A DNA stretch of 19,370 nucleotides from Elusimicrobiota bacterium (GTDB lineage: Bacteria; Elusimicrobiota; Elusimicrobia; UBA1565; UBA9628), in the NCBI GenBank assembly GCA_028871595.1, contig JAGWMT010000028.1:1-19370 (forward strand), read 5' to 3'. Positions 13-4,835 of the stretch are shown here, piece after piece. The translations under genes and the position numbers were made by a program. The notes beneath the pieces are model-generated. The model did no database searches, had not been told where the DNA came from, and saw only the letters and a list, made by a program, of their open reading frames with translations. Every line of letters starts with the position of its first letter. The stretch's first letter is position 1.

Positions 13-693
13 ATGACCTGCTCTAAATACCTCGCCGCATCGGTCATCCTCATCGCGACGGCCGCCGCGGCCCAGGGACCCGCCGCGGACTACCTTCTCA
101 GGCAGAAGGGGGGGAAGACCGACGCTCCCGCGGATTGGGCGGGCGTCACGCAGAAGACGCCCTCCAAGACCAACTACTTCTTGCCCACCGGCTACACGTT
201 CCCGGTGCGGCTGGAAAACGCGGTCTACTCGTACAACGTCGAAACGCCGGCCATCGCGGTCGTCGAGAAAGACGTGATCTACCTCCAACGCGTCGTGATC
301 CCCGCGGACACGCGAGTCATCGGCACGGTGGGAATCATCAAAAGCCACGACCGGGTTCTCATTACCTTCCACACGCTGGTCTTCAAGACCGGCGACGAAG
401 TAAAAATCTCAGGAATGGCTTTATCACTCGACGGCTCGGCGGGAGTAAAGGGGAAAGTCGAAACGCACAAGGATTCTTCTGTCGCCAATACGGTTCTGAG
501 TTCGTTTCTGGGCGGCGCACAGACTGCGCTCACCGTCAGCGGCATCAGCCCCATCGCTGCCGGAGCGACTTCCGGCCTCGCACAGGAAGCCAACAAGTCT
601 CTCGACGCACAGCGCCAGGAGGTCACGGAAAGCATTTCGATCGATGCGGAAACAGGTCTACGGGTCTATTTGCCCCAGAGGTTGGAGTATTAG
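13..693 (+). CDS. Secreted VirB10/TrbI-like C-terminal domain protein
   Basis: This 226-aa protein starts with a probable signal peptide (hydrophobic residues 7-20, cleavage near AAAAQ). Residues about 56-226 follow the layout of the VirB10/TrbI/ComB10 C-terminal beta-barrel: an LPTGYTFPVRLENAV segment (57-71), a dVIYLQRVVIPADTRVIGTV segment (about 87-106) matching the family's 'IPkGtrliG' block, a glycine/alanine-rich helical stretch (about 160-195) and a final G-x-RVYLPQRLEY strand. In type IV secretion systems this domain forms the outer-membrane channel ring. The cytoplasmic, inner-membrane and proline-rich parts of full VirB10 are absent, so the protein is a stand-alone periplasmic/outer-membrane version. 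No other T4SS gene is visible. The frame is open to the window edge, so a start further upstream cannot be excluded, although the signal peptide favours ATG 13. GC is lower than in the genes after 3837. Confidence 0.6.
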   Translation: MTCSKYLAASVILIATAAAAQGPAADYLLRQKGGKTDAPADWAGVTQKTPSKTNYFLPTGYTFPVRLENAVYSYNVETPAIAVVEKDVIYLQRVVIPADTRVIGTVGIIKSHDRVLITFHTLVFKTGDEVKISGMALSLDGSAGVKGKVETHKDSSVANTVLSSFLGGAQTALTVSGISPIAAGATSGLAQEANKSLDAQRQEVTESISIDAETGLRVYLPQRLEY

Positions 694-934: not shown

Positions 935-958
935 CTTATATAGGCTATGCGCTATACT
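931..958 (+). promoter_or_regulatory. Sigma70-type promoter of the toxin-antitoxin/recombinase operon
   Basis: TTGACT (931-936) and TATACT (953-958) are separated by 16 bases, a near-consensus vegetative promoter. It predicts a transcription start near 964-966. The -10 box lies downstream of the first in-frame ATG (947) of the toxin, so that ATG could not be used from this promoter, and the next ATG (974) becomes the likely start. Confidence 0.6.
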
Positions 959-973
959 ACAGATGACTTCGAA

Positions 974-1324
974 ATGCTTCGCGTCCAGTTCTATCCCTCA
1001 GGGGACAATGGCCCGGTACGGGAGTATCTTCGAGGTCTACGGAAAGACCCTCAGAGAAAGGGTGCGTCGGCTCGGCTCGGCCTGGATCTTCGGCTTTTGC
1101 AAGAGGAGGGACTCGCTTCCAAGCAGATCGATATCCTGCGTGTCACCGGGATTCCGGGGTCAGTTTGGGAGCTTCGCCGGACATTCGAGGGAATCCGTTA
1201 CCGAATCTACTTCTGCGTGAAACGCGGCGAAGTGTGGTTGCTTCACAATCTGGAGAAGAAGACGCCGAAAATACCGAAACACGACCTCAAATTGATCCGG
1301 ACTCGCGCGAAGGAGGTGCTGTAA
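974..1324 (+). CDS. Gp49/HigB-type (RelE superfamily) toxin
   Basis: This 116-aa protein resembles the phage-derived Gp49-like/HigB family, which are RelE-fold, ribosome-dependent mRNA interferases that cleave mRNA in the cytoplasm. Seen in sequence: an N-terminal LRVQFYPSGDNGPVREYL block, a central 'VWELRRTFEGIRYRIYFCVKRGEVWLLHNLEKKTPKIP' block with the family's R-x-(Y/F)R-x-x(Y/F) and F/LxKKTxKxP motifs, and a basic C-terminus. The start at 974 is preferred to the in-frame ATG at 947 because the family usually begins just before the VxFY strand and because a strong -10 box (953-958) lies between the two ATGs. The antitoxin ATG follows the stop by two bases. Toxin-first order is typical of higBA. 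Active residues were not tested against a structure. Confidence 0.8.
   Translation: MLRVQFYPSGDNGPVREYLRGLRKDPQRKGASARLGLDLRLLQEEGLASKQIDILRVTGIPGSVWELRRTFEGIRYRIYFCVKRGEVWLLHNLEKKTPKIPKHDLKLIRTRAKEVL
1310..1316 (+). promoter_or_regulatory. Ribosome binding site of the antitoxin
   Basis: AAGGAGG lies 10 bases before ATG 1327, inside the last codons of the toxin. It is one of the strongest Shine-Dalgarno sequences in the window. This sets the antitoxin start at 1327 rather than an earlier in-frame ATG (1165) that would overlap most of the toxin gene. A strong site before the antitoxin and none before the toxin would favour antitoxin excess. Confidence 0.75.
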
Positions 1325-1326
1325 CC

Positions 1327-1704
1327 ATGAATCACGCCAAACCGAAGCAAAGCGGCCTCGACAAGTTCCTGCTGGAAAGCATGGCGGAAGACGAGCAGTT
1401 CCGCACGCTCTTCCTCGCGGAGGTAATGAAGCTTCCTATTTCCTCGCAACTTAGAGCCCTCCGAAATTTTCGGGGCTTGTCTCAGTTGGCTCTCTCGAAG
1501 CGCACCAAACTTGTTCAGCCGGAAGTGGCGCGATTGGAGAGCGCCGGGGCGAATCCACGAGCCCGAACGTTGGAGCGCCTGGCAAAGGGACTCGGGGCAA
1601 GAGTAGAGATAATCCCCGAGAATCTCCTTCCCTTCGTGGGAGCGCAGCAGCTTCGCGCTCAAGGTGAAGAGTATTTCAATCGAGTCGCCGTGGCTGGGGC
1701 CTGA
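1327..1704 (+). CDS. HigA-type XRE-family antitoxin
   Basis: This 125-aa protein has a helix-turn-helix of the XRE/Cro type at about residues 40-95: LRALRNFRGLSQLALSKRT (scaffold and first helices), VQPEVARLESAGANPRARTLERLAKGLGARVEI (recognition helix and following helices). The N-terminal 35 residues are helical and acidic in part (ESMAEDEQF), probably contacting the toxin. By family knowledge it would neutralise the preceding RelE-fold toxin and repress the shared promoter at 931-958. The start is set by AAGGAGG at 1310-1316. Its stop TGA shares a base with the next gene's ATG (TGATG at 1702-1706), so the third gene is probably translationally coupled to it. Confidence 0.82.
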   Translation: MNHAKPKQSGLDKFLLESMAEDEQFRTLFLAEVMKLPISSQLRALRNFRGLSQLALSKRTKLVQPEVARLESAGANPRARTLERLAKGLGARVEIIPENLLPFVGAQQLRAQGEEYFNRVAVAGA

Positions 1705-2078
1705 TGCCTAAAGTCGATATACTGAATTTCATTCCATATCACGCCGGCAAGGCGAAAGGCCCCGAACCGTTGAACGGCCTCACTCCAAAGCTGGCCGCCG
1801 AACGTGTGCGTGAATCGTGTGCCGACCAGGGACCAAATTTCATGGGCTGGAGTAAGGGCATTTTGGATCACTGCATCATTCCTCCAGATCACCCTTACCG
1901 GGCTCTACTTACGAAGAAGAAGATTCCGGGCGATGACCCGCTCTGGGTCTTGGGCGCGATCGCGTACGGGACACAAAGCCCTTGGATCGGCTTTCGCCGC
2001 ATCGAGTGGGACGACGGAAAAGTGGAACTTCCGGACAACCTCGAACGTAAGTGGATAGTGAAGCAGGGAACCCTTTGA
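1704..2078 (+). CDS. Hypothetical protein, third gene of the toxin-antitoxin operon
   Basis: This 124-aa soluble protein was not recognised. It has no signal peptide or membrane segment. It contains two cysteines (in RESCADQG and LDHCIIPP), many prolines and a Trp-rich second half (MGWSKG, PLWVLGAIAYGTQSPWIGFRRIEW). Its start overlaps the antitoxin stop (TGATG), and its stop lies two bases before the recombinase ATG, so it sits inside a four-gene operon. The context suggests a role in control of the toxin-antitoxin module or in the mobile element (for example a recombination directionality or accessory factor), but nothing in the sequence proves either. Confidence 0.65.
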   Translation: MPKVDILNFIPYHAGKAKGPEPLNGLTPKLAAERVRESCADQGPNFMGWSKGILDHCIIPPDHPYRALLTKKKIPGDDPLWVLGAIAYGTQSPWIGFRRIEWDDGKVELPDNLERKWIVKQGTL

Positions 2079-2080
2079 CC

Positions 2081-3778
2081 ATGATCCGAGCCGGCATCTA
2101 CATCCGCAAGTCTCGCCAGGATAAGGGCCAGGAGGCCCACCGGCTGGAGCTTCAACGCAAGAAGCTCCCGGCGCACGCGGCCGCCCAGGGCTGGTCCTAC
2201 GAGCTCTACGATGACGACATCATCTCTGGAGCCGAAGTCGAGAACCGGCGGGAGATGGTCCGGCTGATCGCAGATATCGAGAAAGGCCTTATCAACGTGG
2301 TCCTGTGTATCGAGTTTTCGCGACTCTCCCGCGATGACTCCATGACCGATTACCTGACCTTCCTCAATCTCTGCGCCGCTAAGAAGGTCAAGCTCGCCAC
2401 CCCGGAGCGCCAACTCGATCCAACCGATACCTCCTCATGGTTCTTGGCCATCATGGAGGGGGGCTTCTCCGCGGTGGAAATGAAGACGCTCAAGAAGCGA
2501 CTCATGGAGGGACGCGAAGTGGCGCGCAGCAAGGGCCGCTGGCTGGGAGGCCCGCCGCCTTACGGTTTCAATTACGACAAAAACCTAAAGAAGCTGATTC
2601 CGAACCCGGAGACGGCGAAGATCGTCCAAAAGATTTTTCACGAACGGGGGAAGGGTCGGAGCATCGATGATATCGTCCGGATGGCCCGTGACCGCCGCTG
2701 GCCTCTGCCCTGCGGGGGCGCCTACTGGTGGAACATCAACGTTTTCCGCATTCTCAAGAAGCCTGTTTACGCGGGCTTGGCCATGCACAATGGCGAACTC
2801 ATCAAGGCCGCATCAGAGCCATTGGTTGACAGGGTCGCGTGGGAGGCGGCACAGCCGATCCACCTGCGCCCGCGCGGCAATCGAACAACATCGCTGCTGC
2901 TGACCGGTCGGGGCCGAGTTCGCTGCGGATACTGCGGCAGCACGGTCAACTGCATAACTTCTCGCGGGAAAAAGCACGCGAACGACGACGGACGCGGCCG
3001 GACGATCCGCTACTACCACTGCTACGGGCGAAACCAAGGCGTCAATTGCCGCGCCTTGAGGAACATCTCGGAAGATGAGTTGGACCGACTGGTCGTTTTA
3101 CTGCTCGGCCAGATCAGCCGAAACAAACGGGAGATTCTGGCCGGCATACAGGAATTTCTCACCAAGCGGCAGGGTGACACCCCGGCACGCAAGCAGCGGC
3201 TGGAAAACCAGCTACAACACGCCATGTCCGCCAGCCACAAAATACTCAACGCCTACGAACAGGGCATCATTTCATTGGAACAGCTCAAGGCTCGGAACGA
3301 GGAGCACAAGAATCGAATCGACGAATTGAGAAAGGGTATAATGGACATCGATCTGGAGTTGGCGCGTCAGGGACTCGATGTTGACTTGGCGACTCTGGAA
3401 AAACGTCTTGGCAGCTTCCAGGCAGATTTGACGAGGATCGACCCGCAGGGGCTCAGGGCACTCGTGGACCCACTGATATCTAAAGCACGATTATTCAACG
3501 AGAAGGTTGAGTTGACCTTTTCGTTCCCGGTTGACGGCGAGCACACGCATGTTTACGCGCTTCCTGGGAAGCCTCAAGCCACTTCGTACATTCATAACTC
3601 GACGGACGACCGTTCTGCTTTGCCGAAAAAACCGCTTAATGCCTCCGTAGCTCAATGGATCGAGCATCCGCCTTCTAAGCGGGCGATACAGGTTCGATTC
3701 CTGTCGGGGGCAGTCCCTTTGGAATTACTCGCCGGTCCCCATAGTAAAGTAACATACGCTAGAGCTCCTGCCTTCTAA
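2081..3778 (+). CDS. Large serine recombinase (integrase) reading into tRNA genes
   Basis: This 565-aa frame begins with a resolvase domain (about 1-150): Y-I-R-K-S (residues 7-11, Ser11 the likely nucleophile) and FSRLSRD (79-85) with the catalytic-arginine motif. A Recombinase domain follows (about 155-265, starting GGPPPYGF), then a zinc ribbon (Cys282, Cys285, Cys314, Cys323) and a coiled coil (about 345-430) typical of large serine integrases and phage/ICE or Tn4451-type enzymes. It catalyses site-specific strand exchange between att sites. ATG 2081 is chosen over an in-frame ATG at 2051 inside the upstream gene, because the YxRxS strand normally starts the protein. There is no stop after the expected end near residue 485: residues 521-565 are encoded by the tRNA-Arg gene at 3641-3712, the spacer and the 5' half of a second tRNA. 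The stop TAA (3776-3778) is in that tRNA's anticodon loop. The functional C-terminus is therefore uncertain. Confidence 0.9.
   Translation: MIRAGIYIRKSRQDKGQEAHRLELQRKKLPAHAAAQGWSYELYDDDIISGAEVENRREMVRLIADIEKGLINVVLCIEFSRLSRDDSMTDYLTFLNLCAAKKVKLATPERQLDPTDTSSWFLAIMEGGFSAVEMKTLKKRLMEGREVARSKGRWLGGPPPYGFNYDKNLKKLIPNPETAKIVQKIFHERGKGRSIDDIVRMARDRRWPLPCGGAYWWNINVFRILKKPVYAGLAMHNGELIKAASEPLVDRVAWEAAQPIHLRPRGNRTTSLLLTGRGRVRCGYCGSTVNCITSRGKKHANDDGRGRTIRYYHCYGRNQGVNCRALRNISEDELDRLVVLLLGQISRNKREILAGIQEFLTKRQGDTPARKQRLENQLQHAMSASHKILNAYEQGIISLEQLKARNEEHKNRIDELRKGIMDIDLELARQGLDVDLATLEKRLGSFQADLTRIDPQGLRALVDPLISKARLFNEKVELTFSFPVDGEHTHVYALPGKPQATSYIHNSTDDRSALPKKPLNASVAQWIEHPPSKRAIQVRFLSGAVPLELLAGPHSKVTYARAPAF
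3641..3712 (+). tRNA. tRNA-Arg (anticodon UCU)
   Basis: A complete 72-base cloverleaf can be drawn. The acceptor stem pairs GCCTCCG with CGGGGGC (one T-G pair); the D stem is GCTC/GAGC with an 8-base loop; the anticodon stem is TCCGC/GCGGG with loop CTTCTAA, giving anticodon TCT at 3674-3676; the variable loop has 4 bases; the T stem is ACAGG/CCTGT with loop TTCGATT; the discriminator base is A3712. CCA is not encoded. It lies entirely inside the open frame of the serine recombinase, and its first base is the first base of a recombinase codon (521). It probably marks, or was copied by, the element's attachment site. Confidence 0.9.
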
Positions 3779-3812
3779 GCAGGCAATTCAGGTTCGATTC
3801 CTGAAGGGGACA
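3735..3812 (+). tRNA. tRNA-Arg(UCU)-like gene with aberrant D-arm
   Basis: The 78-base segment has an acceptor stem of six pairs (GTCCCC with GGGGAC) plus an A-A mismatch at the seventh, a perfect anticodon stem CCTGC/GCAGG with loop CTTCTAA (anticodon TCT at 3774-3776), and a T arm TCAGG/CCTGA with loop TTCGATT. The D region (3742-3766) is about five bases too long and lacks the GCTC partner for GAGC (3762-3765); only a 3-bp GTA/TAC helix forms. It may be an unusual functional tRNA, a decayed tRNA, or a recombinant with a foreign 5' half. From 3765 to 3812 it is clearly homologous to the upstream tRNA. CCA is not encoded. Confidence 0.6.
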
Positions 3813-3836
3813 GTTGATCTGAGAGGGCTTAAGACC

Positions 3837-4835
3837 ATGAAAACGATCGCCGCCGTCATCGCCGTCCTGCTGTCCGTAACCGCCGCCCGCGCGGCCTCGC
3901 CGGCCGAGGCGACCCCGGCGGCGCCGGCCCCTGCGCCCGCTCCCGCTCCCACTCCCGCGCCCAAGTCGTTGTCCGCCAAGGAGATTTACGAAGCCGACGC
4001 GAAATCCGTGGTCCTCATCCTGGCCGGCAACTCCGGCGGCCAGGGGGAACTGGGCACGGGCAGCGTCATCGACGCGACCGGCCGCGTCCTGACCAACGCC
4101 CACGTCGTCATCGACGACAAGACCCACGAGCCCTACCCCGTCATCCGCGTCTATCTGAAGCCCGCCCGCGTCACCGGCGACGCCAAGACGGACATGGTCG
4201 ATCCGATCTCCGCGAAGGTCGCCCGCTACGACCGCGCGCTGGACCTGGCCGTGCTGGACCTGTCTCGGGCGCCCAACGTTCCCGCTTTGAACTTGGGCGA
4301 CGACGCCGGCGTCGAGACCGGCGATCCGGTGGTGGCCATCGGCCACCCCGAACAGGGCGGCCTCTGGACGCTGACGCAGGGCGTCATCAGCACCGTCGTG
4401 GCCGACCTGGGCGGCGTCCCGGGCAAGAACGCCTTCCAGACCGACGCCAGCATCAACCGCGGAAACTCCGGCGGCCCGCTGATCGACCGGACCGGAGGGA
4501 TCGTGGGCATCAACACCTCGATGGCCCGCAAGGCCGCCGACGGGCTGACCATCACGAGCGTGAATTTCTCCATCAAGTCCTCGGTCGCGCGCGCGTGGCT
4601 GGACCGCCAGTCCCAGACGGACTCCGCCGCCGCGGCGCCCGCGGCTCCCGCGGCCCCCGTCGCCGAGGCTCCCGCCCTCCCGCCCGCTCCGAAGACCAAG
4701 CCCGCGATCCTGACCCCCGCCAAACCCTACCGCATCGAGGACGTCGTGGAAGAGGGGATGAAGGAGATGGATCAGCAGTCGGACGAGATGCACGACGAGA
4801 TCCAGAAGCGCTTGGCTCCCGCCCCGACCCGCTAG
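3837..4835 (+). CDS. Secreted HtrA/Deg-type trypsin-like serine protease
   Basis: This 332-aa protein has a signal peptide (1-19), an Ala/Pro repeat linker (about 27-43), and one chymotrypsin-fold S1C domain (about 47-260). The catalytic triad is visible: His89 in LTNAHVV, Asp136 in ALDLAVL, and Ser211 in GNSGGPL. It should degrade or monitor proteins in the periplasm. Unlike DegP/DegS it has no PDZ domain; instead a second Ala/Pro linker (about 265-295) leads to a C-terminal acidic helix (EDVVEEGMKEMDQQSDEMHDEI), which might mediate oligomerisation or tethering. GAGAGGG (3821-3827) nine bases before ATG is a plausible ribosome binding site. No stem-loop terminator separates it from the tRNA just upstream, so it may be co-transcribed with it. 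GC rises sharply here relative to the recombinase. Confidence 0.87.
   Translation: MKTIAAVIAVLLSVTAARAASPAEATPAAPAPAPAPAPTPAPKSLSAKEIYEADAKSVVLILAGNSGGQGELGTGSVIDATGRVLTNAHVVIDDKTHEPYPVIRVYLKPARVTGDAKTDMVDPISAKVARYDRALDLAVLDLSRAPNVPALNLGDDAGVETGDPVVAIGHPEQGGLWTLTQGVISTVVADLGGVPGKNAFQTDASINRGNSGGPLIDRTGGIVGINTSMARKAADGLTITSVNFSIKSSVARAWLDRQSQTDSAAAAPAAPAAPVAEAPALPPAPKTKPAILTPAKPYRIEDVVEEGMKEMDQQSDEMHDEIQKRLAPAPTR

Follow-up and report, generated by a model that had tools for sequence, protein, structure and literature searches.

A candidate rescue tRNA nested in frame within the serine integrase gene of an Elusimicrobia mobile element

The stretch of Elusimicrobiota DNA analysed here (the window, 19,370 nucleotides) opens with what looks like an integrative and conjugative element, of which only the right end is included. 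The element's serine integrase gene contains, in frame, an intact tRNA-Arg(UCU). Taken together, our results very probably describe an element whose attP is in the 3' end of its integrase gene, whose target is the D-arm of a host tRNA-Arg(UCU), which brings with it an in-frame rescue copy of that tRNA and whose integrase has its C-terminus swapped on integration. In the mechanism that we propose, the D-arm of the host tRNA-Arg(UCU) is the target, and the serine integrase would recombine it with an attP in the 3' end of the gene that encodes the enzyme itself. Comparison with relatives shows that the insertion splits the host tRNA and leaves junctions that are not normal tRNAs, and that the host half furnishes the last codons and the stop of the integrase. 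The element-borne tRNA-Arg(UCU), released from the integrase transcript, would replace the broken and apparently single-copy host gene, and its altered D-loop would spare this rescue copy from the integrase. The circular form would encode a different, basic integrase C-terminus, which integration would remove.

The features of the window are collected in Table 1. Conjugation genes are present on the contig of a related element as well (genome G198; TrbI and TraG/TraC ATPases). The Gp49-like and HTH genes form a toxin-antitoxin-like pair 5' of the integrase, both in the window (947-1704) and, by eye, at about L001:412-1154. Upstream of a conjugation ATPase gene on contig C9 of G198 lies a gene (L023:11334-17792) whose 2152-aa product has fibronectin type III domains. 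Searches of viral contigs with the integrase gave two distant recombinases, the better one at 31% identity, and plasmid and phage proteins reached at most 33% and 28% identity, respectively, among the matches listed.

Table 1 Features of the window around the right end of the element
Feature	Position	Strand	Basis
TrbI-like conjugation protein, element	13..693	+	Pfam
Gp49-like protein, element	947..1324	+	Pfam
HTH protein, antitoxin-like, element	1327..1704	+	Pfam
Small gene directly upstream of integrase	1704..2078	+	ORF; no Pfam match
Large serine integrase gene	2081..3778	+	Pfam Resolvase, Recombinase, Zn_ribbon_recom; 19 homologues
Intact tRNA-Arg(UCU), in frame inside integrase gene, element-borne	3641..3712	+	ARAGORN, Rfam, alignments
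Conserved post-tRNA integrase tail	3713..3762	+	Tail kept in 19 homologues (alignment A1)
Presumed right attP arm, last ~25 bases of post-tRNA tail	within 3713..3762	+	G198 equivalent forms dyad
Putative crossover TAGA, right end of element	3760..3763	+	Core common to relatives' left and right ends
Putative central dinucleotide AG of crossover	3761-3762	+	Shared core
3' part of host tRNA-Arg(UCU), right junction	3763..3812	+	Matches empty-site tRNAs such as L043
Last integrase codons and stop, host DNA	3764-3778	+	Comparison with relatives
Integrase stop TAA	3776-3778	+	Within host tRNA anticodon loop, CTTCTAA
Host trypsin-like protease gene, integration-site marker	3837..4835	+	Pfam; orthologue beside intact tRNA-Arg(UCU) in other genomes

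The integrase gene and the tRNA within it

The integrase open reading frame runs from ATG 2081 to TAA 3778 and encodes 565 amino acids, or 575 from an upstream GTG. Its product has the resolvase domain, the recombinase domain and the zinc ribbon of a large serine integrase, and its top match among solved structures is the SPbeta integrase (YokA/SprA; 9dxh; sequence profile, E 1.4e-27); this protein would be the catalyst of the attP x attB integration reaction. Codon 521 starts at 3641, which is base 1 of the tRNA-Arg(UCU) called by ARAGORN (3640-3713) and by Rfam (RF00005, 3641-3712, 66.7 bits against a gathering score of 29), and translation of the tRNA in the integrase frame gives the readout ASVAQWIEHPPSKRAIQVRFLSGA. 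After the tRNA, the frame reads a short tail, AVPLELLAGPHSKVTYARAPAF, and then stops in a second, degenerate tRNA, with the last four codons and the stop contributed by host DNA. The preliminary description of this DNA had reported the stop-free passage through an intact tRNA-Arg(UCU) from codon 521 and the stop in the anticodon loop of the next tRNA, and both observations hold: ARAGORN, Rfam and the open reading frame agree on the first, and the second is seen in CTTCTAA. Its statement that the recombinase has no stop after its expected end is right as regards the open frame but not as regards an expected earlier end. The post-tRNA tail belongs to the gene, because all 19 homologues aligned with the window protein end in it (family V-[TA]-x-x-R-A-x-x-[SF]).

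The tRNA readout precedes this tail in eight of the 19 homologues (P0001-P0008), two of which read the tRNA in the same frame as the window (VAQWIEH...RFLSG) and six in another (SSMDxST...RFDSxxG). By eye, the other 11 proteins (P0009-P0019) have no tRNA readout; eight end in RATPS and three in RASLS. Searching again with the profile of alignment A2, at E 1e-100, brought up these 19 proteins once more and no new members. In a tree of the first 470 residues, which like A2 omits P0018 (N-terminally truncated) and P0019 (a chimera), all 11 tRNA-carrying sequences (the window, G001, G198 and P0001-P0008) form one clade with support 1.0, and the nine tRNA-less sequences included (P0009-P0017) fall into two groups, one of which joins the tRNA clade with a weak support of 0.70. 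On this tree, a single gain of the tRNA by the integrase lineage is the simplest reading.

Among 340 Elusimicrobiota genomes searched at E 1e-25, nine had an integrase match; four were distant (25-29% identity; G122, G124, G197 and G205) and were left out, and five were close (G001, G198, G217, G189 and G216). The relatives' genomes are drafts, and the named Elusimicrobia genomes are metagenome assemblies. A scan of genome contigs for relatives gave ten loci, nine of which were mere tRNA matches or a distant recombinase. All five close relatives carry a tRNA-Arg(UCU) inside the integrase at the same place, although the right flanks of two (G001 and G189) differ from those of the others. The expectation that homologous frames would also enter tRNAs was thus borne out in eight proteins and five genomes, and the same recurrence assigns the intact tRNA at 3641 to the element and not, as in the earlier view, to the host locus. 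The G189 element (L025:10056-13507, contig C157) is decayed, with a TGA within the integrase and no right junction, and has two left ends, which are separated by 1 kb and flank a Bro-N gene; its embedded tRNA is intact and is the only match to the UCU pattern in that genome.

The embedded tRNAs keep both their fold and an open frame. In an alignment of the five distinct embedded tRNAs (the tRNA of G216, L015, is identical to that of L013 and was omitted), 99% of the cells of the fold are paired and five pairs are changed on both sides; with five host tRNAs added, pairing is 100%. Frame 1 is the sole stop-free frame of the window tRNA and is the one the integrase uses. The four other distinct embedded tRNAs (G001, G198, G217 and G189) are open only in frame 3, and there the integrase uses frame 3. 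In all 12 ordinary host tRNAs compared, frame 1 is open, frame 2 is closed by a TAG at positions 8-10 and frame 3 by the TAA of the anticodon loop; the D-loop of the four frame-3 copies is one base longer than that of the hosts, and frame 3 thereby clears the TAA. Since the integrase always occupies the tRNA's single open frame, the readthrough is more than chance. The D-loops differ from those of the hosts in another respect: the core TAGAGC is absent from all five embedded tRNAs, which have TCGAGC (in the window), TCAGAGC or TAGCAGC, and the 17 tRNAs at empty sites carry TAGAGC in 14 cases and CAGAGC in three. The altered D-loop may protect the rescue copy against attack by the integrase and, in one lineage, would additionally hold the frame open.

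The integration site and the point of exchange

When the trypsin-like protein was used as the query, 43 of the 340 genomes gave a match, and 30 of the matches were given loci, one of which was the occupied site of G198. At 17 of the other 29, one intact tRNA-Arg(UCU) adjoins the trypsin gene, upstream and on the same strand in 16 and in the opposite orientation in one; the remaining 12 are without it. None of the 17 loci holds both tRNAs, and their genomes gave no close integrase and no left-end match. The second tRNA of the window agrees with these empty-site tRNAs from TAGAGC onwards and is a junction chimera, degenerate in its 5' half, which ARAGORN calls 'tRNA-???' with a 4-nt anticodon and which scores 29.8 bits with Rfam. 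The preliminary description had proposed that integration into a tRNA locus replaced the end of the gene; the empty sites bear out the locus and the host-derived end, and the assignment of the intact tRNA at 3641 to the host falls away.

The left ends were located by way of the tRNA 5' half, as a promoter-like stretch and the 5' half running into an attP arm (e.g. GCCTGTAACTGCTACG). This pattern gave 18 matches in 10 of the 340 genomes and none in a backwards control; in G001, which has the integrase, it gave no left end. In place of the AGAGC of the right end and of the hosts, AGAAC or AGGAC stands at the left ends of G216 and G217, and this difference suggests that exchange takes place at TAGA, with AG as the central dinucleotide. 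The exchange point would be the junction between D-loop and D-stem of the host tRNA-Arg(UCU). A crossover in the anticodon loop, considered on the strength of the shared CTTCTAA, was dropped, as the D-arm core is all that left and right ends have in common.

G198 probably provides both ends of one element, as its sole left end, on contig C222, and its right end, on C9, would belong together. When the two host halves are rejoined, ARAGORN recognises a tRNA-Arg(UCU) with one acceptor-stem mismatch; at both junctions of G198 and at the predicted circle junction it finds no tRNA. The G198 attP arms are inverted repeats with a gapped score of 13, against a maximum of 11 in 3,000 random pairs from the same contigs, and G198 thus shows the dyad attP and the very short shared core (TAGAGC) of the large serine integrase type. 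The element's left end falls outside the window, and the window's right arm, comparable only with the left arms of other elements, scores 5-9 against four of these, within the background (mean 3.1, max 11). The empty sites, the left ends and the rejoined halves of G198 together place attP at the 3' end of the integrase gene, as had been proposed. At the right end of G001, the chimera is called tRNA-Arg(UCU) by ARAGORN and scores 65 bits against 96 for the embedded copy; some tRNA function may remain at this junction.

Fragments of these sites also occur on their own. In genomes with no close integrase, six left ends stand alone, each made up of the tRNA 5' half and the attP arm, at L121:3861, L122:13649, L124:9614 and L125:8803 (G228, G175, G186 and G183) and on G229 C42 and G234 C27. 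Four of them have an intact tRNA-Arg(UCU) 1.4-4.1 kb downstream and no right end was seen; between left end and tRNA, three carry cargo, for instance an SNF2 helicase, a peroxidase, or KaiC together with CheB, and these loci look like small cassettes. Dispersed units of about 110 bp, consisting of the promoter-like stretch, the tRNA 5' half and the attP arm, are found in G216 (L094:3984, L095:4649, L096:6486 and L097:5793) and in G217 (L098:5071 and 8014, and L099:6109). One unit of G216 and one of G217 share the left flank and differ in the right one, and the right flank of the G217 unit matches that of a third unit, as if they had recombined at the unit. On G198 C222 there is a second partial tRNA copy (L093:8572-8700) that ends in a GC-rich hairpin; between it and the promoter lies an inverted copy of the D-arm/anticodon segment. 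The D-arm antisense sequence, AGCTCTATCC, is present in several host promoters.

Rescue of the target tRNA and the two integrase C-termini

A strict pattern for the 3' half of tRNA-Arg(UCU) matched 283 of the 340 genomes, once in 265 and two or three times in 18 (multiple matches were counted by eye, and some are not tRNAs), and was absent from 57. In each of the five element genomes it found the embedded tRNA, and in four of them the junction too; the sole other match, in G216, is not a tRNA. With a covariance model whose alignment includes the embedded tRNAs and so favours them, the embedded copy was the best match in all five genomes (94-99 bits), the next being another tRNA-Arg at 82 bits or less. 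Out of 131 matches to the model, 30 loci were run through ARAGORN, which called no UCU tRNA apart from the embedded copies and the junction chimera of G001; 40 further stretches of weaker matches gave 69 tRNA calls, none of them UCU. Among the tRNAs found in the five relative drafts, the embedded copy alone reaches a full score for tRNA-Arg(UCU). AGA is decoded by tRNA-Arg(UCU) alone, and AGG can be read by it as well; by these codon reading rules, the target tRNA would be essential. The embedded tRNA is probably a rescue copy for the host gene broken by the insertion, and the insertion is probably not lethal to the host thanks to the tRNA carried.

The tRNA-less relatives may provide the counterpart. 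RATPS followed by a stop is the readout of the Elusimicrobia tRNA-Arg(CCU) (G001 and G216) in the corresponding frame (AGA GCT ACT CCG TCC TAA), and the protein tails of the eight relatives ending in RATPS fit tRNA-Arg(CCU) as their target. This target would be dispensable and therefore no rescue tRNA would be needed. The pairing of UCU targets with a rescue tRNA, and of CCU-like targets with none, suggests that target essentiality drives tRNA capture. At L083 and L101 (G217 C205), a tRNA-Arg(CCU) is cut off past the anticodon loop; by pattern, no intact tRNA-Arg(CCU) was found in the G217 draft or in G198.

How the embedded tRNA is expressed bears on the integrase message. A -10 box matching at least five of six positions lies within 30 bases upstream of 17 of 21 host tRNAs and of none of the five embedded ones. 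A promoter scan of 1900-3900 found none and carries little weight, because only 0.6 matches are expected by chance and the promoter of the integrase operon was missed too. Because the -10 box survey shows no promoter of its own for the embedded tRNA, the integrase transcript is probably the precursor from which it is cut, and such cutting would remove the stop of the message. Cutting of the integrase message by RNase P is plausible. The preliminary description had seen in this an off-switch thrown by integration, with the circle making a normal protein; in that form the proposal is not supported, since the embedded tRNA is in the gene in the circle and in the integrated form, and RNase P could therefore cut either message.

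On present comparisons, integration would instead swap the last few integrase residues. At the right junction of G198 the frame ends in ...KVTGPRASAF, the last codons being host DNA, and at the predicted circle junction in ...KVTGPRAPVTAMRPKKRKQK, each followed by a stop; read across the predicted attP it gives RAPVTAMRPKKRKQK and a stop, and across attR RASAF and a stop. Among the 18 left ends, 12 encode a basic tail like this one with a stop soon after; two run on unstopped in the stretch examined, one stops at the core, one is degenerate and two show the motif in frame. In 13 circle-form tails there is no third-position bias, with 289, 192 and 273 differences at codon positions 1, 2 and 3, and the codon positions therefore give no support for protein-level selection on the basic tail, which is at the C-terminus of none of the 19 homologous proteins. 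As a tentative idea, which we would not yet favour, these features could form a self-limiting circuit: survival of the host would need transcription of the integrase operon, each mature tRNA would destroy one message, the demand for AGA decoding would set the dose, and integration would exchange the basic tail for the host-encoded one. If this were true, the tail swap could alter the direction or the stability of the recombinase.

Other explanations of the arrangement have to be considered. That both tRNAs are ordinary host tandem genes, beside which the element integrated, with the open frame a matter of luck, is very improbable; this explanation is near to the picture in the preliminary description. 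In its favour, the two are neighbours, a common arrangement for tandem tRNAs, and both resemble tRNA-Arg(UCU), but the 17 empty sites hold one such tRNA each, the pattern matches exactly once in 265 of the 340 genomes, and the first tRNA accompanies the integrase in five genomes, two of them with other right flanks, and is read out in eight of 19 homologous proteins; we rejected this explanation on the single tRNA of the empty sites. We give almost no credence to an assembly artefact that joined an integrase contig to a tRNA locus: the named genomes are metagenome assemblies, but the structure recurs with different sequences in L001, G198, G216, G217 and eight protein records.

It is unlikely, if less extremely so, that the embedded tRNA is a passenger, a decoy or a relic of an earlier target with no role in rescue. 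The lack of a visible promoter of its own and the junction tRNA of G001 that ARAGORN still calls would suit a passenger; the top score of the embedded copy in all five genomes, the fold kept by changes on both sides of pairs, and the intact tRNA beside the broken integrase of G189 do not. A greater, though still minor, share of probability goes to the possibility that the readthrough has no meaning for the protein, the integrase ending near the tRNA (through an RNase P cut or a dispensable tail) and the tail being conserved as attP DNA only. The overlap of the tail with the attP arm is in keeping with this, as are the missing third-position bias of the left-end tails and the predicted disorder of residues 477-565 (pLDDT <50, in a weak model with mean 62 and pTM 0.30 that has another low-confidence stretch at 260-331). 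Against it, the tRNA is kept open in two different frames, the second only by way of the one-base-longer D-loop, and the stretch PLELL, between the tRNA and the attP arm, is largely conserved among the homologues. We retain the reading in which an in-frame tRNA rescues the host and the integrase C-terminus changes with integration.

Comparison with known systems

The nearest parallel is tRNA-dependent lysogeny, in which, according to the part of the source accessible to us, phage integration breaks an essential single-copy host tRNA via a short common core and the junctions do not rebuild it (Guerrero-Bustamante and Hatfull 2024, PMC10865867). The failure to rebuild the target tRNA is common to both systems, with the G001 chimera as the exception here. 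The differences, as far as that account goes, are that the phages use a tyrosine integrase, whereas the present element has a serine integrase and conjugation genes; that their tRNA gene is separate (in Gaia, downstream of int; PMC10865867), whereas here it is in frame inside the integrase; and that the crossover in the D-arm is a feature of this element. With the integration-dependent immunity of mycobacteriophage BPs, the element shares an attP inside a reading frame and a C-terminus altered by integration; in BPs, as described in the portion consulted, it is the repressor that integration alters, by taking away a degradation tag (PMC4557955), whereas here the integrase itself is altered, and the predicted tail that it loses is basic and does not resemble an ssrA tag.

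Serine recombinases at tRNA genes are described as rare (PMC3218068; PMC4383910), with the Mycobacterium AICEs in tRNA-Leu and phage phiRSM1 in tRNA-Ser as cases; the accessible text does not mention an embedded rescue tRNA in either, and phiRSM1 uses the 3' end of the gene (PMC3218068). Like the tRNA islands of Islander, the present element sits in a tRNA gene and displaces a tRNA fragment. In the islands, as far as the source was available, the gene is restored at one junction and the crossover is in the anticodon loop, the T loop or the T/acceptor junction (PMC4383910). In G198 neither junction restores a functional tRNA (the chimera of G001 being set apart).

A literature search conducted largely outside subscription journals found no description of a tRNA gene lying within the frame of an integrase, nor of a serine integrase accompanied by a rescue tRNA. 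To our knowledge, no tRNA lies within the gene of the SPbeta integrase (YokA/SprA). Rescue tRNAs, a C-terminus changed by integration and serine recombinases at tRNA genes were each known separately. What is new here is a serine integrase with a candidate rescue tRNA, the nesting of that tRNA in the integrase frame, and an integrase C-terminus apparently changed by integration. A single stretch of DNA would serve as protein code and as an apparently essential tRNA gene, in the single frame that tolerates both, and would offer a testable setting in which translation and RNase P compete on one transcript. If our reading is correct, integration with a rescue tRNA would extend from the tyrosine integrases of phages to serine integrases and conjugative elements.
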